This document shows positions 5,434-21,298 of a stretch of 27,156 nt of DNA, in pieces. Origin of the DNA: a virus; the IMG/VR virus record IMGVR_UViG_3300032157_000041, positions 1 through 27,156 of that record; one strand, written 5' to 3'. Below the pieces are notes generated by a model. The model had not been told where the DNA came from. It searched no databases and saw only the letters and a list, made by a program, of their open reading frames with translations. Every line of letters begins with the position of its first letter. Position 1 is the stretch's first letter. Both the position numbers and the translations under genes were made by a program.

Positions 5434-5541
5434 AAACGGACCTTCAGACGATCACACAGCGATCAGATGTTCGCACGACGATCACCGGGATTGCAGCGGA
5501 ACATCGGTTTTCGCCCGATCTGTCAAGGGGTCGGAACCCGG

Positions 5542-5563
5542 TTCGAATCCCGTTGGGGGTGCC
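5542..5563 (+). other. tRNA 3'-end-like segment, candidate att core
   Basis: The segment begins TTCGAAT, as in a tRNA T-loop, continues with CCCGT as the 3' half of a T stem, then TGGGGGT and G as a 3' acceptor strand with discriminator, and CC. No matching 5' half, anticodon arm or complementary 5' T-stem (ACGGG expected, CCCGG present) occurs upstream. It is therefore a fragment that would restore a host tRNA gene on integration, not a tRNA gene. The amino-acid identity cannot be told. Confidence 0.6.
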
Positions 5564-5574
5564 CCTCAAGTACG

Positions 5575-5614
5575 GCTCCTGACCTGCATCGATGCAACAG
5601 CGCAGGTCAGGGGC
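5575..5614. other. Long inverted repeat next to att core
   Basis: CCTGACCTGC (5578-5587) pairs perfectly with GCAGGTCAGG (5602-5611), extended by GCT/GGC with one wobble to about 13 bp. The loop contains part of a 10-base palindrome GCATCGATGC (5586-5595). The sequence following is pyrimidine-rich. It resembles terminators that follow actinobacterial tRNA genes, so it may supply a terminator to the tRNA after integration, or be a recombination-protein site. Confidence 0.55.
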
Positions 5615-5622
5615 TGTTCTCT

Positions 5623-5642
5623 GTGGTCACACCGTGGTCACA
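5623..5642 (+). repeat. Direct GTGGTCACA pair, candidate integrase arm sites (right)
   Basis: GTGGTCACA occurs at 5623-5631 and 5634-5642, an 11-base period of about one helical turn, only 44 bases before the integrase ATG. It shares GGTCACA with the left pair. Binding here could serve both recombination and control of integrase expression. Confidence 0.5.
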
Positions 5643-5685
5643 ACGGCAGGCGAATCTGTCAGCGCACAGGCATACGATCCCCGCC

Positions 5686-6858
5686 ATGGCCCGCCCCGAA
5701 TATCGTCCAGCCAAGGACGGCACCGACGCCTGGCGCGTCCGCTACCGGATCGGCGGCCGCCAGTCTGGTGAGACGTTCTACACCCTCGGCGCCGCCCAGG
5801 AGTTCTGCGACTGGATTCGCGTCTTCGGCACCGAGCGGGCTGTGCAGCTGCTCGCCACCGAGACAGCACATCTCCAGCCGCCGGCGGTCCTGCCGACGCT
5901 CGACGAGTGGGCCGAGAGGTACATCGACGCGCTGCCGGGTGCGTCCGGCGACACGAAGGACGGCTACCGGTCGTCCTATCGGCATTCGTTCGGCACCCGG
6001 ATCGGGATGCTGCGCCTCGACCAGGTCGACCGCGAAGCAGTGTCCCGCGCCATCGTCGACATGCAACGCGCCGGCGGACCGCGCACCAAGGGCGGCTACT
6101 CCGACAAGTCGATCGCGAACCACCACGGGCTGCTCTTCGGGATGATGGCCACCGCCGTCCTCGACCGGGTCATCACCGCGAACCCGTGCGCCGGCGTCCG
6201 CCTGCCCCGTAACAGCGACCACGAGAAGCAACCGAAGCGGTTCCTGACGCCGGCGGAGTTCCAGCGCCTGTGGTCCAAGATCGGTGCCCACCATCGGCCC
6301 CTCATCGAGACGCTCGTCGGGACTGGGATCCGGTGGGGCGAAGCCGAAGCGCTCCTGGTCTCCGACGTCGACCTGGCTGCCCGGCTCCTGCACGTGACGA
6401 AGGCCGCGAAGCGGTCCGGCGACGGCCGGCGCATCATCGGGCCAACCAAGACCCGCCGGTCACGACGGACAGTCAGTCTGCCGCTCGAGCTCGTCGAGAC
6501 CCTTGAGGCCGTCGTGCGCGGCCGCGACGATCGCGAACGCCTGTTCGTCGCCCCCCGTGGTGGCCCGCTGGGGCACAAGGTGTTCTGGCAGGACGTGTGG
6601 TTGCCGGCGTGCGCGAAGGCCAAGCTGGCTGAGCCGCGGCCGCGTATTCACGACCTGCGTCACACCTACGCTTCCTGGATGATCGCCGAGGGCGTTTCGA
6701 TGAAGGCGCTGCAGGAATCGCTCGGCCATGAGTCGATCACCACCACGATGGACCTGTACGGCCACCTGATGCCCGGGGCAATGGAGGAGACCGCCGCAGC
6801 TGCGTCTCGAGCTCTGGCGCGGGCGTTGCCCGGCCGCGGGAAAATCCGGGCGGCTTAG
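5686..6858 (+). CDS. int: Tyrosine-family phage integrase
   Basis: 390 residues from ATG 5686. The frame is open further upstream into the att region, but that part is not protein-like and runs through the att hairpin, so the internal ATG is preferred although no clear ribosome site precedes it. Residues 1-55 resemble an arm-binding domain (WRVRYRIGGRQSGETF), 70-165 the SAM-like core-binding domain (TLDEWAERYIDAL), and 185-375 the catalytic domain. Catalytic residues are visible: R216 (GTGIRWGEAEAL), K255, H322 and R325 (HDLRHTYAS), H348 (LGHES) and nucleophile Y358 (MDLYGHL). It would integrate the phage at a tRNA-type site and excise it with the excisionase. It ends in a 4-base convergent overlap with the DUF3263 gene. 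Confidence 0.95.
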   Translation: MARPEYRPAKDGTDAWRVRYRIGGRQSGETFYTLGAAQEFCDWIRVFGTERAVQLLATETAHLQPPAVLPTLDEWAERYIDALPGASGDTKDGYRSSYRHSFGTRIGMLRLDQVDREAVSRAIVDMQRAGGPRTKGGYSDKSIANHHGLLFGMMATAVLDRVITANPCAGVRLPRNSDHEKQPKRFLTPAEFQRLWSKIGAHHRPLIETLVGTGIRWGEAEALLVSDVDLAARLLHVTKAAKRSGDGRRIIGPTKTRRSRRTVSLPLELVETLEAVVRGRDDRERLFVAPRGGPLGHKVFWQDVWLPACAKAKLAEPRPRIHDLRHTYASWMIAEGVSMKALQESLGHESITTTMDLYGHLMPGAMEETAAAASRALARALPGRGKIRAA

Positions 6859-10574: not shown

Positions 10575-10783
10575 GCGTCCTCAATGTCGACGTCGTCGAC
10601 TGCACCTACTGCGAAGAGCTCATCGAGCCAGCCGTCGACGACGGAGTCAACGCCTTCGACTGCCAAGCCTGCGGCAACGGATGGCACCACTACGACAACT
10701 GCGCTTCGAGCTGCTCGGCGTACCTAGACGAACTCAACGCGGACGACGCGCTGTCGGCCGCTCTTGATGAGAGGGACCTCTGA
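10571..10783 (+). CDS. Zinc-ribbon-like small protein
   Basis: 70 residues. CTYC at 11-14, CQAC at 31-34, a WHHYDNC stretch and a further CxxxC around 44-48 suggest one or two zinc sites. The C-terminal part is acidic (LDELNADDALSAALDERDL). It overlaps the upstream stop (ATGA) and shares one base with the following exonuclease gene. A role as a nucleic-acid- or protein-binding early regulator is possible but unproven. Confidence 0.65.
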   Translation: MSVLNVDVVDCTYCEELIEPAVDDGVNAFDCQACGNGWHHYDNCASSCSAYLDELNADDALSAALDERDL

Positions 10784-11787
10784 TGACTGCCACCATCCAG
10801 GCGATCGGCCACGTCTCGCCCACCGGCCGCATCGTCACCGACGCCGATGCCGGCACCCCGCCATGGTTCGCTGCACGCCGCGCCGGCATCACCGGCACCG
10901 ACCTGCCCAAGATCCTCGGCGACTCCCCGTACGGCAACGCTCTCTCGGTCTGGCACGACAAGCGTGGCGACATCCTCGATGATCTCGTCTCCGAAGCCGG
11001 CGAATGGGGACACATTCTCGAGGACCCGATCGCCCAGGAATGGGCACGCCGAAACAAGGTCCAGGTCGTCCGCGTCGGCGTCGTCGCCAACACGAAACAT
11101 GACTGGCAGCGGGCCTCCCTCGACCGCCTCGTCCACGGATGCCCTGACGCCGAGATCTGTGGCCTCGAGGTCAAGACCCGGTCCGCGTTCAAGGCCGGCA
11201 TGTTCCGTGACGACATCCCCGACGACGTCCTCGCCCAGGTCGCCTGGGGACGTCTCGTCACCGGCTTGCCGCACATGCACGTCGCGGTCCTCATCGGTGG
11301 CCAGCAGATGCTCGAGTTCACCTACGAGCCCGACGTCCAGCTCGAGACCTTCCTGATCGAGAAGGCGTCCGCGCTTTGGCAGGCCGTCGAGGACAACAAC
11401 CCGCCCGACGTCGAACCGGATTCGGACGGCGTCCTCATCGGGCTGCTGAACAAGCTGTACGAATCCCGTGCCGGCACCCGTGAACTCCCGCCCAAGGACG
11501 TCGAGAAGTGGGTCGCCCAATACCGCGCGGCACACGTCGACGAGAAGGCCGCGGCCGCACTGAAGGAAAAAGCCAAGGCCGCGCTCATCGCGCTGCTCGA
11601 CGACGGCGAGATCGGTGTCGTCAACGAGGAACCGGTCTTCACCTACCGGCGGCCGTCTGCGTCGTACTCAGTGCCGACGAAGGCGCTGGCCGAGCTCAAG
11701 TCCGAAGACCCCGAGCTGTACGAGCAGCTGCTCGCCGGCGAGTGGATCACCGAATCTTCCCCGTCTCCCCGATTCCTCTTGAAGTGA
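10783..11787 (+). CDS. YqaJ-family viral recombinase exonuclease (RecE/lambda Exo type)
   Basis: 334 residues, TGATG junction. Residues 28-60 carry the YqaJ signature (WFAARRAGITGTDLPKILG, then SPYG and VWHDK). The PD-(D/E)xK nuclease residues are visible: E80 (GHILEDPIAQEW), D114 (ASLDRL), E129 and K131 (GLEVKTRS), and Q152 (VLAQVAWG). Family members degrade one strand of double-stranded DNA 5' to 3', leaving a 3' overhang for a RecT-type annealase. The recT gene follows 11 bases later, so the two form a recombination pair for phage replication or repair. Confidence 0.9.
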   Translation: MTATIQAIGHVSPTGRIVTDADAGTPPWFAARRAGITGTDLPKILGDSPYGNALSVWHDKRGDILDDLVSEAGEWGHILEDPIAQEWARRNKVQVVRVGVVANTKHDWQRASLDRLVHGCPDAEICGLEVKTRSAFKAGMFRDDIPDDVLAQVAWGRLVTGLPHMHVAVLIGGQQMLEFTYEPDVQLETFLIEKASALWQAVEDNNPPDVEPDSDGVLIGLLNKLYESRAGTRELPPKDVEKWVAQYRAAHVDEKAAAALKEKAKAALIALLDDGEIGVVNEEPVFTYRRPSASYSVPTKALAELKSEDPELYEQLLAGEWITESSPSPRFLLK

Positions 11788-11798
11788 AAGGCCCGACC

Positions 11799-12794
11799 AT
11801 GACCAACACCCTCCGCGACCGTGCCGCTGGCCAAGAAGTCGCCAAAGTCGAACAAGCGCAACCCCTGGCTAAGCAGATCGAGGCCATGGAGTCCCAGTTC
11901 CAGATGGCCATGCCGCGCGGCGTCGAAGCCAAGCAGCTCGTCCGCGACGCCCTCACCGCACTGAGGATGACGCCGAAGCTGGCAGAGGCGGACCCCCGCA
12001 CGGTTCTCGGTGCGCTGATGACCTGCTCCCAGCTCGGCCTGCGCCCGGGGGTGCTCGGCCACGCTTGGGTCCTGCCGTTCTGGGACTCGCGCTCGAGGGC
12101 TCAGAAGGCGCAACTCGTGATCGGCTACCAAGGTCTTGTCGAGCTTGCGTGGCGGTCCGGGAAGATCGAATCGCTGATCGCTCGCACGGTCTACGAACAC
12201 GACGAGTTCGACGTCGCCTACGGGCTCGAGGACCGACTCGACCACAAGCCGCACCTCGGTGGCGATCGCGGCAACCCGATCGCCTACTACGCGGTCGTGA
12301 AGGTCAAGGGTGGCGGCCGCGCGTTCGTGGTGATGACCCAATCCGACGTCGAAGCGCATCGTGACGCGCACGCCATGGCCAAGACCAAGGAAGGCCGGAT
12401 CGTCGGCCCGTGGCGCGACAACTTCGAGGCCATGGCCCACAAGACCTGCGTGTTGAAGCTCGCGAAGTGGATGCCGAAGGGCACCGACCTGGCCGTGGCG
12501 ATCGCCGCGGACGAATCGGTGCGTATCAATCTGGCGCCCGACGTCGGTGCCGAGTCCGTCTCGCATCACTACAACGACGACGAGCCGGTCGAAGGTGAAG
12601 TCGTCGACGACGACCGCGAGCAACTGCTCAAGGAGGTCTACGAGACCGGCACAGCCAAGGGCATGACGGGCTGGGATCTCGAAGCCAAGTACGCCGAGAT
12701 CAAGGAAGGCGAGCTGCTCTCCGACGCCACGACTGAGGACCTGACCGGCTACCTGACGTGGATCAAGGCGCAGAAGAAGACGGCCGCGAAGTGA
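11799..12794 (+). CDS. recT: RecT single-strand annealing protein
   Basis: 331 residues. ATG 11799 has GAAAGG about 8 bases upstream and starts 11 bases after the exonuclease stop; the longer open frame upstream is antisense-like Arg-rich shadow. Hallmarks of RecT are visible: DPRTVLGALMTCSQLGLRPG (residues about 65-85), GHAWVLPFW, LVIGYQGLVELAWRSG (about 107-122), YYAVVKVKGGGRAFVVM, and FEAMAHKTCVLKLAKWMPKG with the conserved K-x3-R/K cluster. The C-terminal about 70 residues are acidic and helical. It pairs complementary single strands produced by the neighbouring exonuclease. Confidence 0.92.
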   Translation: MTNTLRDRAAGQEVAKVEQAQPLAKQIEAMESQFQMAMPRGVEAKQLVRDALTALRMTPKLAEADPRTVLGALMTCSQLGLRPGVLGHAWVLPFWDSRSRAQKAQLVIGYQGLVELAWRSGKIESLIARTVYEHDEFDVAYGLEDRLDHKPHLGGDRGNPIAYYAVVKVKGGGRAFVVMTQSDVEAHRDAHAMAKTKEGRIVGPWRDNFEAMAHKTCVLKLAKWMPKGTDLAVAIAADESVRINLAPDVGAESVSHHYNDDEPVEGEVVDDDREQLLKEVYETGTAKGMTGWDLEAKYAEIKEGELLSDATTEDLTGYLTWIKAQKKTAAK

Positions 12795-15366: not shown

Positions 15367-15806
15367 CGTCCCTTGCGTTCCGGGTCTACGGCATACCTGC
15401 CGCGCAGGGCTCCAAACGCCACGTCGGCAACGGCGTCATGATCGAGTCCTCCAAGAAGGTCAAGCCCTGGCGCCAAGACGTCGTCGCCGCCGCCATCGAG
15501 GCCATCGACCGGTTCGGGGTCCAGCAGTTCATGGGCCCGGTCAAGGTGCACATCACGTTCTTCTTCCCTCGACCGAAGGGCCACTACCGCACGGGCAAGT
15601 TCGCGCACGAGCTCAAGCCGTCCGCACCAGTGTTCGTGGCCACGAAGCCCGATGTCGATAAGACCGTCAGGTCGACTCTCGATGCTCTCGGCACGGCTGG
15701 CGTCTATCGCGACGACTCGCTCGTGGTCTCTCTGGCCGCGTCGAAGGTCTACGACTCCAATCCGGGCGCCCAGATCGCCATCTACCCGGCCCAGGAGACC
15801 GAATGA
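15363..15806 (+). CDS. rusA: RusA-type Holliday junction resolvase
   Basis: 147 residues. The N-terminus VYGIPAAQGSKRHV is typical of RusA proteins, the middle has VHITFFFPRPKGHY, and the active-site region PDVDKTVRSTLDAL (D97, D99, K100, D107) is followed by GVYRDDSLVV (D117, D118), which together give the conserved acidic cluster. RusA dimers cut four-way junctions; with the upstream exonuclease and RecT this completes a phage recombination set that resolves branched DNA before packaging. Confidence 0.9.
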   Translation: MTSLAFRVYGIPAAQGSKRHVGNGVMIESSKKVKPWRQDVVAAAIEAIDRFGVQQFMGPVKVHITFFFPRPKGHYRTGKFAHELKPSAPVFVATKPDVDKTVRSTLDALGTAGVYRDDSLVVSLAASKVYDSNPGAQIAIYPAQETE

Positions 15807-16549
15807 ATCAGCCACGCCAGTCCGCCGCCATGATCCCCATCGACCGCCTCACCCCCCACCCCGCCAACGTCCGCGAAGAACTCGGCGACCTCACAGACCT
15901 CGCCGCGTCCATCGAAGCCAACGGCATCGTCCAACCCATCGTCGTCACCGAACACCCCACCAAGGACGACCACTTCCTGATCCTCGCCGGCCACCGCCGC
16001 TACGAAGCCGCATTCCAACTCGGCCTGCCCCGCGTGCCCGTCGTGATCCGGCACGGCGACCAAGAAACCCTCGACCAGGTAGTGCTGATGCTCGTCGAGA
16101 ACATGCAGCGCTCCGACCTCAACCCTGTCGAGAAGGCTGAAGCCCTCGGCCACCTCAAGAACCGCGGCATGACCCAGCGTGAGATCGCCCGCCAGGTCGG
16201 CATCTCCGACTCGAACGTCTCCTACTACCTGCAGCTCCTCGACCTCGACGACGACTCCCTAGAGCGTCTCCGTCGCGGCCAAGCCCGGATGGGTGATGCC
16301 ATCGACATGGTCGTTCACCGCCGCAAGATGGATCGAGCCGAGAACGGCCAGGCCGAGCGCGGCCGCCCCGTCCAGGTCGAAGCCCCTTGGCTGTCTCTGG
16401 CGCATCCGCTCGCCGAGAAGGTCAAAGCCGAGTGCACCCACACGACCAGACCCAAGGTCGGCCGCGTCGGATGCGGCCAATGCTTCGAATCTGCGATCCG
16501 CGAAGACGAACGCCGGCGCCAGCGCATCGACCAAGGAGTGCCACGATGA
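15803..16549 (+). CDS. ParB/Spo0J-like nuclease-fold and HTH protein
   Basis: 248 residues from ATG 15803. ParB hallmarks: IPIDRLTPHPANVRE at the start, LAGHRRYEAA (GHRR 63-66), ENMQRSDLNPVEKA (99-112), then an HTH (MTQREIARQVGISDSNVSYY, about 123-142). The C-terminus differs from chromosomal ParB: a Cys/His cluster (C211, H213, C224, C227) replaces the usual dimerisation domain. GHRR is the CTP-binding box in ParB clamps. No parA is present, so plasmid-style partition is unlikely; transcription control or DNA loading is more plausible. Confidence 0.8.
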   Translation: MNQPRQSAAMIPIDRLTPHPANVREELGDLTDLAASIEANGIVQPIVVTEHPTKDDHFLILAGHRRYEAAFQLGLPRVPVVIRHGDQETLDQVVLMLVENMQRSDLNPVEKAEALGHLKNRGMTQREIARQVGISDSNVSYYLQLLDLDDDSLERLRRGQARMGDAIDMVVHRRKMDRAENGQAERGRPVQVEAPWLSLAHPLAEKVKAECTHTTRPKVGRVGCGQCFESAIREDERRRQRIDQGVPR

Positions 16550-17564: not shown

Positions 17565-18089
17565 ATGTCCGCAACCACCGCCAAGGTCGCCGCACGATCC
17601 AAGACCGACAACACCGGCATCACACCCGAGCTCTCGACCAAGATGTACAAGAACCTCGGATCGAACTACATGGCCATCGTCGAACTCCGCGTCGCCGAAC
17701 GCATCGAAGGCGACGACCAGTCCCACGCCGTCAAGCTCGAGGTCAACCGCATCGAACCCGCGGCCGACAAGGACATCGAGGACCACATGCGTGCCCTCGA
17801 ACGCGCCCTGTACTTCAAGCGGAACCCGCAACCGACCCTGACCCAGAAGGACCCCCTCGAGGCCAACGTCACCAAGGTGATGGACAAGACCGGCCAGACC
17901 GTCCTGAACTGCGCGCTGTGCGAACACAAGTACGCCGACACGAAGATCTCGCACGCCCGCGGCGCCGGCCCCGAATGGCCGCCGTGCGTCTGGTCCTCAT
18001 GCGGGCACGTCGTCGACTTCACCGAGCCCAAGGTCTGCACCAAGTCCCACACGCCGGTCGACGACGACGAGAAGGCGAAGAAGTCATGA
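17565..18089 (+). CDS. Hypothetical actinophage protein with C-terminal Cys cluster
   Basis: 174 residues from ATG 17565, with GGAAGGAA about 12 bases upstream inside the previous gene. Residues 35-90 alternate strands and helices (MAIVELRVAERIEGDDQSHA, IEDHMRALERALYFKRN). C116, C119, C141, C146 and C158 in the last third suggest a metal site. The tail is acidic then Lys-rich. No function recognised. Its stop overlaps the second ParB-like gene, so the two may be linked. Confidence 0.65.
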   Translation: MSATTAKVAARSKTDNTGITPELSTKMYKNLGSNYMAIVELRVAERIEGDDQSHAVKLEVNRIEPAADKDIEDHMRALERALYFKRNPQPTLTQKDPLEANVTKVMDKTGQTVLNCALCEHKYADTKISHARGAGPEWPPCVWSSCGHVVDFTEPKVCTKSHTPVDDDEKAKKS

Positions 18090-19438
18090 GCACCCTTACC
18101 ACCGTCGACGTCAAGCTGATCGACGCTCATCCTGACAACGTCCGCCGTGACGCAACCCCCGACCCTGAGTTGATTGCCTCAGTCAAGGCCCAGGGGATCC
18201 TGCAGCCGATCGGCGTCATCGAGACCACCTATCCGAAAAGGAACGGCAGCCGGGCGACGCTCGGCTACCTCCTCATCGCCGGCCATCGTCGTCTCGCGGC
18301 CGCGAAGAAGGCCGGGCTGGCCGAGATCCCGGTCATCGTCTACGACCACCTCCTGACGCGCGCCCAGCAGATCGAGGCGATGCTCGTCGAGAACGGCCGC
18401 CGCGCCGACCTGTCCGCGGTCGAGGAGGCAGCCGCCTACGAGCAACTGACCCTCGAGGGCGTCACGCCGGCGGCAATCGCCAAGGCCACCGGCAGGTCCC
18501 CAGCCACAGTCAAGGCCCGACTCAAGCTGACCAGGCTGCCCGCGGCCGCCACCGAAGCGCTCCACGGCCATCAGATGACCCTGGCCACCGCCGAGCACAT
18601 CCTCGAGTTCGCCGACTATCCGCAGCTGCTCGAGGAAGCCGAAAAGTTCCTCGCCGACGGCAAGCTCGACGAGTACGAAGCCCGACGCCTGGCCAAGCGG
18701 ATCAACGTCATCAACGAACACCGGGCACTGCGCGCCAAGTACGAGAAGTCGGGCCTCCCTGTCGTCGACACGATGCCCCAGCACGGCTGGTACGCGTCCA
18801 AGGAATGGAACCGGGTCAACAGCGAGAATCCGAAGCAGGCAGCGGCGTACTACCCCGGTGATGACGCCGGCTGGTGGAACTCCGAGCCGGTCCTCCTCAA
18901 CCCCCTCAAGGGTGGTGCCGATGAGACACCCGAGCAGGTCGCCAAACGCAAGGAACGCGAGAAGCTGGAACGGGCCAAGTTCAAGGCCGACCAGGAGGCC
19001 CTCGAGCTGCGGCACCAAATGCGCCTCGAGCACGTCGTCGAGCTCGGCCGCGGACTGAAGGTCGACTCACCACTCCTCGCGCACCTGCGGGTCGCAACCG
19101 GCAAACTCATCAACAGCTACGGCCCCGCCGTCATCGAGCGGATCACCAAAGCCGCCGGCGTCGACGACCTCGTCATCCGCGAGAAGAACGACTACGCCGG
19201 TGAGGCGCTCGCCGAAGCTGTCCGGGCCAACCTGAGCGATACCCAGGTCATGCAACTGCTGCTGGCCTGCCTCGCGCAGACCGCAGACAACGGCTACACC
19301 AACACCAGGCACCGAGCCGACGAACGCGCCGACGCCAACGAAGCAGCGTTCTGGCACGCCTTCATCGACTCCGGTTACGACCTGCCCACCGAAGACCAGA
19401 AACAGGCCGACAAAACCATCAGCAAAACCCCGGAGTGA
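18086..19438 (+). CDS. Large ParB-like protein
   Basis: 450 residues; ATG 18086 is chosen for the ATGA overlap, since the longer frame is shadow. The ParB core is residues 5-160: VKLIDAHPDNVRRDATPDPE, LIAGHRRLAAAKKAG (GHRR 66-69), VENGRRADLSAVEEA, and an HTH (VTPAAIAKATGRSPATVKAR). The remaining 290 residues are helical and Lys/Glu-rich (about 295-335, KRKEREKLERAKFKADQEAL), then a C-terminal domain ending with a DERADANEAAFWHAF helix. Size and extra domain distinguish it from the first ParB-like protein. No parA or obvious parS is seen. A role in DNA organisation, replication or transcription is possible. Confidence 0.8.
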   Translation: MSTLTTVDVKLIDAHPDNVRRDATPDPELIASVKAQGILQPIGVIETTYPKRNGSRATLGYLLIAGHRRLAAAKKAGLAEIPVIVYDHLLTRAQQIEAMLVENGRRADLSAVEEAAAYEQLTLEGVTPAAIAKATGRSPATVKARLKLTRLPAAATEALHGHQMTLATAEHILEFADYPQLLEEAEKFLADGKLDEYEARRLAKRINVINEHRALRAKYEKSGLPVVDTMPQHGWYASKEWNRVNSENPKQAAAYYPGDDAGWWNSEPVLLNPLKGGADETPEQVAKRKEREKLERAKFKADQEALELRHQMRLEHVVELGRGLKVDSPLLAHLRVATGKLINSYGPAVIERITKAAGVDDLVIREKNDYAGEALAEAVRANLSDTQVMQLLLACLAQTADNGYTNTRHRADERADANEAAFWHAFIDSGYDLPTEDQKQADKTISKTPE

Positions 19439-19443
19439 CACCC

Positions 19444-19545
19444 ATGAACCGGTGCGTCGCCACGTGTGGGTCTTTGGTCCTTTCCCCCACAGGCGCCCCC
19501 AACCGGCCTAGCCCCACCGGCGCACCACAACGGGGCACCCCATGA
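19444..19545 (+). CDS. Possible 33-residue leader peptide of the helicase gene
   Basis: ATG 19444 to TGA 19543-19545, with the stop overlapping the helicase ATG. The peptide is Pro/Thr/Gly-rich (SPTGAPNRPSPTGAPQ). The RNA can form TGTGGG (19465-19470) with CCCACA (19486-19491). Just before the helicase ATG lies GGGGCACCCC, a short palindrome that could hide the start. The overlap suggests translational coupling, but coding is not proven. Confidence 0.3.
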   Translation: MNRCVATCGSLVLSPTGAPNRPSPTGAPQRGTP

Positions 19546-21023
19546 CCTCAGACCCCGCAGAAAGCAGCCCCGTGGCCGACGACGAACAGCCGCCATACAG
19601 CGACGACGACGCCCCACCAGCCGACAACGTCCGCCCACTCACCGGACGCACCGAACCCGCGCACCTCGCAGCCGAACGCGCCCTCCTCGGCTCCCTCATC
19701 TACGACCCCGACCAATTCGACGCAGCAGCCGCCATCCTCGGCCCAGCCGACTTCGACGAACCCAAACACCAGACCATCTGGGACGCCATGACCGCCGTCG
19801 CGGACCGCGAAGGCCACCCACCTGTCCACACCCTCGTCCTCGCCGAACTCAAACGCGCCGGCCACCTCGCCAAAGTCGCATCGATCCTCCCCCAGCTGCC
19901 AGGGGACTACCCGGACCTCGCCGTCCAGTACGCCGCCATCGTCCACGAAGAAGCCGACGGCCGATTCGTCGCCAACGAGCTCCGCCACGGCCTCGCCGAA
20001 ATCACCAACCGCGGCACCGGCAACCTCGTCGACGTCTCCGGCCGCGTCATGGACGCCCTCGACCAAGCCTTCAAATTCGTCGGCCCCACAGCCGCATCCA
20101 ACATCCCCACCATCGACGAACTCCTCGCCGGCGACGAAGACCCCTACCACTGGGTCATCCCCGGCCTCATCGAACACCAAGAACGCATCATCCTCACCGC
20201 CGAACCCGGCGCCGGCAAAACCACCCTGCTGCGCCAGATCGCGCTCACCGCCGCCTCCGGCATCCACCCCTTCACCCTCGACCCCATCGAACCCATCACC
20301 GTCCTGCACGTCGACGTCGAAAACTCACGCCGCCAGAACCGGCGCCTCTACGGAGCCATGCGCACCAAAGCCGGCAAGGACCTCAAACCCGAGAACCTCC
20401 GCATCGAAATCAGGATCGAAGGCCTCGACCTCACCACCGGCGAAGACCAAGCCTGGCTCAACCACCGCGTCAAGACCGTCAAACCCGACCTCCTCCTCAT
20501 CGGCCCCATCTACAAGCTCGCCAACGGCGACCCGATCGAGGAGAAGTCCTCCAAGCCCGTCGCGATGTTCCTCGACCGTCTCCGCGCCGACCACGATTGC
20601 GCCATCATCCTCGAAGGCCACTCCGCCAAAGCCCCCGTCACCGACGCCAAGAACCGCAAACCACCCCAAGAACCCTATGGCTGGTCCGGGTGGATGCGCT
20701 GGCCCGAGATCGGCATCTGGCTCGCCAAAGAGGGCGACCTCAAACACTGGCGCGGAGCCCGCGAAGAACGCTCCTGGCCCACCCACCTCCGACGCGGCGG
20801 CCACTGGCCCTGGACCCCCGAACTCGACGGCTCCGACCAGGTCTACAAAGACGCCCGCCAAGCCCGAATCAAAGCCGGCCACCGCATCACCATCCGCGAA
20901 GTCGCCGACGCCCTCAACACCCCCACCACCAGCATCCAACGCGTCCTCGGAACCGGCTCCAGACACGCCCTCGCCTGGACCGCATTCAACGAATCCACCC
21001 TCCAAGGAGACGCCACCAAATGA
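19542..21023 (+). CDS. Replicative helicase: DnaB-N domain with RecA-type ATPase
   Basis: 493 residues. After an acidic start, residues 38-135 match the DnaB N-terminal domain (HLAAERALLGSLIYDPDQFD, FDEPKHQTIWDAM). Residues 200-400 are a RecA/RepA-type ATPase: Walker A AEPGAGKTT (220-228), then VLHVDVENSRRQNRRL, a Walker B-like PDLLLIGPIYKL (about 314-325), and EGHSAKAP. The C-terminal part has an HTH (ITIREVADALNTPTTSIQRV). It would unwind DNA at the phage origin; its position directly before the TGTTCC repeat cluster supports that. The base composition is strongly C-biased on this strand. Confidence 0.85.
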   Translation: MTSDPAESSPVADDEQPPYSDDDAPPADNVRPLTGRTEPAHLAAERALLGSLIYDPDQFDAAAAILGPADFDEPKHQTIWDAMTAVADREGHPPVHTLVLAELKRAGHLAKVASILPQLPGDYPDLAVQYAAIVHEEADGRFVANELRHGLAEITNRGTGNLVDVSGRVMDALDQAFKFVGPTAASNIPTIDELLAGDEDPYHWVIPGLIEHQERIILTAEPGAGKTTLLRQIALTAASGIHPFTLDPIEPITVLHVDVENSRRQNRRLYGAMRTKAGKDLKPENLRIEIRIEGLDLTTGEDQAWLNHRVKTVKPDLLLIGPIYKLANGDPIEEKSSKPVAMFLDRLRADHDCAIILEGHSAKAPVTDAKNRKPPQEPYGWSGWMRWPEIGIWLAKEGDLKHWRGAREERSWPTHLRRGGHWPWTPELDGSDQVYKDARQARIKAGHRITIREVADALNTPTTSIQRVLGTGSRHALAWTAFNESTLQGDATK

Positions 21024-21298
21024 CCAATTCACAAACGCACTCCTGTTCCAACACCCCCTGTGGAAAACCCCTGTTCCAGCCTGTTCCAAGCACCACCGGA
21101 ACACCCACTGACCAGCACAAACACCAAAAACCAGCCTCTGTTCCACCCACCCCCCATGGAACAGGCGAAAACCCCCACAAAACCGCAGGTCAAAGCCTGT
21201 TCCACTGTTCCGCCTCCTACGGAGGTGGTGCCGGAGCGGAACACCGCCACCTCCGCAGCAGGACACCGACACCCCAGAACGGAGGACTGAACCCATGA
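21020..21298 (+). CDS. Low-complexity frame overlying the repeat cluster
   Basis: ATG 21020 overlaps the helicase stop and TGA 21296-21298 overlaps the next ATG, so it would fit the operon as a 92-residue protein. However, composition is Pro/Thr/His/Gln-rich without hydrophobic core (STTGTPTDQHKHQKP), as expected when a frame passes through iteron DNA. It may be translated only to couple the helicase and the downstream gene. Function unknown. Confidence 0.35.
   Translation: MTNSQTHSCSNTPCGKPLFQPVPSTTGTPTDQHKHQKPASVPPTPHGTGENPHKTAGQSLFHCSASYGGGAGAEHRHLRSRTPTPQNGGLNP
21042..21243. repeat. TGTTCC iteron cluster, candidate replication origin
   Basis: Six direct TGTTCC copies start at 21044, 21072, 21082, 21139, 21198 and 21206 (five extend to TGTTCCA), and three inverted GGAACA copies start at 21098, 21158 and 21238. 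This gives nine in about 200 bases, interleaved with A-rich patches (CAAACACCAAAAACCAG near 21117-21133, CGAAAACCCCCACAAAACC near 21165-21183). The cluster sits immediately after the helicase gene, and a CCTCC-TAC-GGAGG hairpin is at 21213-21225. Directly repeated boxes, AT-richer spacers and helicase adjacency are typical of phage origins. Confidence 0.6.

Follow-up and report, generated by a model that had tools for sequence, protein, structure and literature searches.

What is the function of the dense cluster of TGTTCC words that follows the replicative helicase gene in this viral genome? The stretch analysed (the window) is a virus record of 27,156 bases, in which TGTTCC or its complement GGAACA was found 25 times against 11.5 expected, a count reached by none of 100 shuffled sequences. 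Nine of these 25 words fall at positions 21044–21243, six on the plus strand (6-mers starting at 21044, 21072, 21082, 21139, 21198 and 21206) and three on the minus strand (21098, 21158 and 21238). Under a first-order Markov model fitted to this segment, the mean was 0.26 words and the maximum four in 20,000 draws, and GGAACA was the most frequent 6-mer in the segment. The original prediction of six direct and three inverted copies after the helicase gene was confirmed by these counts, and the genome-wide enrichment that it had asked about is present. The array segment begins directly after the helicase stop codon (21021–21023), and the next gene starts at 21295.

When extended to seven bases, the nine iterons read TGTTCCA in six cases and TGTTCCG in three. 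Iterons 1 (21044–21050), 2 (21072–21078), 3 (21082–21088), 5 (21139–21145) and 7 (21198–21204) are TGTTCCA on the plus strand, and iteron 6 (21157–21163, minus strand) is an inverted TGTTCCA. Iteron 3 starts 10 bp after iteron 2, a spacing also seen in relatives. The TGTTCCG copies are iteron 8 (21206–21212, plus strand), which has a hairpin directly 3', and the inverted iterons 4 (21097–21103, minus strand) and 9 (21237–21243, minus strand), the last of which lies 3' of the hairpin.

Four of the six reading frames are open across the segment in the window, as might be expected if the segment encoded a small protein and its repeats were incidental. In the relatives other frames are open, and some loci have none; what they retain is the spacing of the words, the boxes and the hairpin, and not a protein. 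A tblastn search for a protein from the segment returned short, weak matches only (best E 0.001), at places where the repeated words coincide. The array had been described as lying in a reading frame of poor protein quality; the long frames carry no protein evidence, and it is the boxes rather than the encoded 92-residue protein that the relatives conserve. The small-protein reading was rejected on these grounds, and we give it almost no credence.

The gene directly 5' of the array (19542–21023, plus strand) encodes a replicative helicase of 493 aa, made up of a DnaB N-terminal domain, a RecA-fold ATPase resembling RepA of RSF1010 and a C-terminal helix–turn–helix (HTH) tail. It matched DnaB (2.2e-14) and AAA_25 (2.8e-24) in Pfam, DnaB-like helicase in PHROG (2.9e-20) and, among PDB profiles, DnaB (1.8e-33) and weakly RSF1010 RepA (1g8y, E 0.0014). 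Its AlphaFold2 model had a mean pLDDT of 88.7, and the Foldseek list was headed by DnaB at about 1e-15. A longer frame (19466–21298) considered as the helicase had no family or phage match and was set aside, the correct frame being 19542–21023.

The tail, residues 425–493 (69 residues; 20814–21020, plus strand), is predicted to form a four-helix HTH domain and is the proposed reader of the iterons. Modelled alone with AlphaFold2, it had a pLDDT of 86 and helices at residues 6–21, 27–34, 38–45 and 52–60, corresponding to 430–445, 451–458, 462–469 and 476–484 of the full protein. The predicted recognition helix is T462–L469 (20925–20948, plus strand), with limits taken from the AlphaFold2 model. 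Weak structural matches of the tail included many HTH DNA-binding domains (VIA Z 5–6). No single HTH family was indicated, as Foldseek gave no match under E 0.001 and the VIA matches at Z 5–6 were spread over many HTH families.

Searches of viral contigs, bacterial genomes, plasmids and phages yielded 160 distinct loci with relatives of the helicase, and array position was counted for 26 tail-bearing and 121 tail-less loci using a significance threshold of log10 p −7. Of the 26 tail-bearing loci, 24 had an array downstream of the helicase and one an upstream array; the corresponding counts for the 121 tail-less loci were five and 52. In neither class did the helicase core contain an array. Two tail-bearing loci (L111 and L114) had no clear array in the DNA examined, and in three loci (L003, L004 and L109) the array lies 1.2–1.8 kb from the helicase. 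The upstream arrays of the tail-less loci are located about 1.4–2.7 kb before the helicase end and, in the cases sampled, fall within a separate initiator-like gene, whose product has an HTH-like N-terminal region and a middle encoded by the repeats. These upstream genes had no blastp match in the approximately 4 kb upstream of the tail-bearing helicases, and the helicase was the sole gene found beside all arrays. The upstream arrays of the tail-less relatives suggest that an array and the domain reading it have moved together during evolution. In the tail-less locus L308, ATGGCA is repeated 16 times within 350 bp, about 1.95 kb 5' of the helicase end; this extreme array probably lies inside an upstream initiator-like gene.

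The arrays have a common spacing, in which two iterons about 10 bp apart are followed by an inverted one about 16 bp further on and then by a box. Boxes of the form GCAGGTCAG, which are independent of the word, are common to the arrays. The GCAGGTCA box was found in 44 exact copies over the arrays, and exact or one-mismatch copies are present in 22 of 23. In the window this box is found within AAAACCGCAGGTCA (21185–21192, plus strand), and GCTGGTCA, which differs from it at one position, is found 11 bp after the start of iteron 4 (21109–21116, minus strand). A DnaA-box-like sequence, TTTTCCACA, with one mismatch to TTATCCACA, is located at 21059–21067 on the minus strand, and the exact DnaA box TTATCCACA is in or near the arrays of four other loci (L002, L003, L004 and L005).

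The hairpin near the end of the array, CCTCC-TAC-GGAGG, is at 21213–21225 (plus strand). A hairpin like it follows the iterons near the array end in 20 loci, and in some of them both arms have changed (for example CCTAC/GTAGG and GGCCC/GGGCC); the hairpins were located by eye, and the pair counts therefore lean towards structure. A second arm able to pair with 21213–21228, at 21247–21262 (plus strand), would form a competing stem, though the evidence for it is weaker, as it is strong in some loci only and not significant in every locus. Scanning viral contigs for the GCAGGTCA box together with a CTACGG hairpin produced mostly chance matches. GC skew flips at the array (around 21000), from about −0.33 before to +0.24 after, a change that could reflect gene content. 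Position, conserved architecture, the changing word described below, the skew flip and the DnaA-type boxes lend support to the original prediction of a candidate phage origin, and the TGTTCC words very probably mark the start site of viral DNA copying.

The words were compared over 23 tail-bearing loci, namely the window and 22 relatives. At least 10 different words were found, mostly of the form TGNNNCA, and nearly all copies within one array agree. Words present in multiple loci were TGGTCCA (6), TGTCCCA (5), TGATTCA (3), TGGCCCA (2) and TGTTTCA (2), and the others were TGTTCCA (the window), TGATCCA, TGACTCA, TGTCACA and TGTCTTG; words were oriented and assigned manually on the basis of the array tables, a word having the same label on both strands. 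When the arrays of the window and of L005 are compared the flanks align, and TGTTCC is replaced by TGTCCC at site after site. Such coordinated replacement at many sites implies that the sites have a reader in common.

An unbiased scan of the mutual information between the word and each of 394 aligned helicase columns, with a permutation null, ranked two adjacent residues at the top, T462 (z 7.0) and T463 (z 4.8), numbered 472 and 473 in the scan, which counts ten upstream in-frame codons. The value for T462 was reached in none of 200,000 permutations (p about 5e-6). The predicted recognition helix begins with these two residues, and the best column matches were of word base 4 with T462 and word base 5 with T463. 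That the word and two tail residues change together suggests that the helicase tail reads the words directly. Arginine 439 (20856–20858), in the helix before the HTH, showed the best covariation with word base 3 (z 5.9) and is a possible third contact.

Residue 462 is R in six loci with TGTCCCA or TGGCCCA, K in six with TGGTCCA and Q in three with TGATTCA. The exceptions are L005, which has K with TGTCCCA, and L008, which has K with TGTCTTG; L204 is counted with them among the exceptions or special cases. Since L005 and L008 break the pairing of K with TGGTCCA, the word is not set by a single residue. Searching about 1,900 whole genomes yielded few further tail-bearing members, and nothing more came from a single-protein search with L106. 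Two additional loci (L192 and L362) obey the residue–word rule, yet are closely related to loci in the comparison.

In a tree of the helicase core, built with the tail left out, 14 changes are needed for the word and 14 for the residue, whose classes cluster no more than shuffled labels do. Both traits depart from the helicase tree, so common ancestry does not account for the match between word and residue. Residue and word both differ in the well-supported sister pairs L288/L103 and L207/L204, and only the residue differs in the pair L002/L005. Independent pairs were never in the opposite direction, and the sign tests, underpowered on their own, gave p 0.125–0.25. The covariation could also have arisen if the reader of the origin is a different protein, of phage or host, and the tail is exchanged with the array as a linked cassette; the tail adjoins the array in most loci, and recombination could move both. 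Under such linkage the signal should extend along the entire tail, but it peaks at two adjacent residues at the start of the recognition helix. In addition, no other gene was found in common among the loci, and the arrays of L003, L004 and L109 are more than 1 kb away. We regard this explanation as quite improbable.

A further candidate is a parS-like centromere, to which one of the two ParB-like proteins of the window would bind. Both proteins, which have ParB_N and HTH domains, are encoded upstream of the helicase (15803–16549 and 17918–19438). ParB-like neighbours were not common to the other array-bearing loci examined, bar a partial match in L003, and the words track the helicase tail instead, leaving a centromere with very little probability. 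The original prediction had named both the helicase C-terminus and the ParB/HTH proteins as potential binders; the first is favoured by the covariation with the recognition helix and by its being the shared neighbour, and the second is unlikely. Since the word covaries with the recognition helix and the helicase is the only gene found beside all arrays, the tail is strongly favoured as the reader.

The array might instead be a regulatory site, at which the tail or a repressor controls its own operon or the downstream gene, with replication starting elsewhere. The array does sit between two genes of one operon, and binding to iterons in plasmids is often autoregulatory too. No intrinsic terminator, sigma-70 promoter or Rfam family was matched in the region, in searches that may miss actinobacterial signals. 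Against a regulatory role, the array is 3' and not 5' of the gene for its reader. The DnaA-type boxes, the hairpin, the skew flip and the location of the tail-less relatives' arrays in initiator-like genes point to replication, and we consider a purely regulatory site unlikely. An origin of replication recognised by the HTH tail of the helicase itself is, in our assessment, highly likely.

From these patterns we infer how such an origin would operate. The HTH tail (residues 425–493) would bind the nine TGTTCC iterons and so gather helicase subunits on the array just 3' of their own gene, where they would open or mark the DNA. A ring of the DnaB/RepA type would then assemble and load near the terminal hairpin, starting theta replication. 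The hairpin is perhaps a priming or loading signal, and DnaA perhaps helps in some of the phages.

DnaB-family helicases are normally brought to the origin by other proteins. RSF1010 (IncQ) resembles the window in the ATPase fold of RepA, to which the 1g8y profile belongs, and in having an iteron origin, but its iterons are bound by a separate protein, RepC. No gene besides the helicase was found beside all of the arrays here. The alpha protein of phage P4 is both a helicase and, through its C-terminus, a binder of short iterons at the origin, and it also carries a TOPRIM primase and an SF3 helicase. The fused TOPRIM primase domain distinguishes P4 alpha from the window helicase, in which no such Pfam domain was found. 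P4 alpha has been compared with pRN1, whose ORF904 is a helicase with a C-terminal winged helix and an origin just 3' of the gene (PMC4234260). It parallels the window helicase, with its predicted HTH tail and the probable origin just 3' of its gene, and differs in being an archaeal prim-pol with an SF3 helicase and in its origin, a large stem-loop without iterons.

Central, phage-like origins with iterons and a helicase were reportedly described in Streptomyces linear plasmids by Chang, Kim and Cohen in 1996. In pSLA2 and pSCL1 an upstream gene encodes an HTH protein and reportedly contains the iterons. This linear plasmid replicon (rep1-rep2) combines iterons with a helicase (PMC13152386). 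The pSCL1 helicase is homologous to those studied here (tblastn, 36.8% identity over 73% of the L104 helicase) and has the same profile. It differs in lacking the tail and in having a separate upstream gene for the HTH protein, whereas in the tail-bearing loci no rep1-type initiator gene was found in the approximately 4 kb upstream and the array is 3' of the helicase. By its helicase pSCL1 (L199) belongs to the tail-less class, but it has arrays downstream too and thereby breaks the two-class rule; CCGTCA is found 11 times and ATGTCG nine times, at 47 and 593 bases past the end of its helicase gene.

In SaPI Rep and SCCmec Cch2, the C-terminal domain recognises short iterons directly 3' of its own helicase gene, as described in PMC7581432 with reference to Ubeda et al. 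2007. The likeness to SaPI Rep/ori lies in the array 3' of the helicase gene, found here in 24 of 26 tail-bearing loci; a C-terminal DNA-binding domain that selects the iteron would have its counterpart here in the predicted HTH tail with its covarying word. SaPI Rep and Cch2 belong to the families DUF927 or D5_N/Primase_Cterm, none of which was detected here by Pfam; the proteins described here combine a DnaB N-terminal domain, a RepA-like RecA fold and a small HTH tail, and are from actinobacterial phages and prophages. The best reading is that the helicase-tail origin works like SaPI Rep/ori on an engine of the DnaB/RepA type. Mycobacteriophage RepA origins are of a different type (PMC7157519). 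The open-access literature searched contained no account of a DnaB/RepA-type helicase with an origin-reading tail.

A broader proposal is that a RecA-fold helicase of the DnaB/RepA type finds and loads at its own origin via the fused HTH, with no separate initiator or loader, and that its two key recognition residues and the origin words have switched together many times to give a natural set of mutually distinct origin–reader pairs with a partly readable residue-to-base code. We give this about even chances. In the loci studied, engine and address reader seem to be joined in one protein, in a pair that has diverged into at least 10 words. The loading of a RecA-fold ring without a separate initiator could then be tested directly, the origins of many actinobacterial phages and prophages that are still uncharacterised could be located, and mutually distinct replicons would be available as natural pairs.

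Features elsewhere in the window include genes for a RecE-like exonuclease and a RecT-like annealing protein (10783–12794). A tRNA 3'-end-like sequence, GGTTCGAATCCCGTTGGGGGTGCC, which is probably an attachment core, is found in the region 5541–5610, where it is followed by an inverted pair of the array's box, CTGACCTGC-N14-GCAGGTCAG, overlapping the start of an integrase frame (5467–6858). The box also adjoins a tRNA-like end in the phages of L104 (L366) and L003 (L368). In the viral contigs (L376 onward and L044), 96 stretches with CTGACCTGC...GCAGGTCAG pairs were found, sometimes in tandem, and 16 of the stretches are at most 1 kb from an integrase-like frame. A putative protein binding CTGACCTGC/GCAGGTCAG may link integration sites and origins. 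The pair lengths are often near 24, 34 or 44 bp, a pattern of helical phasing.
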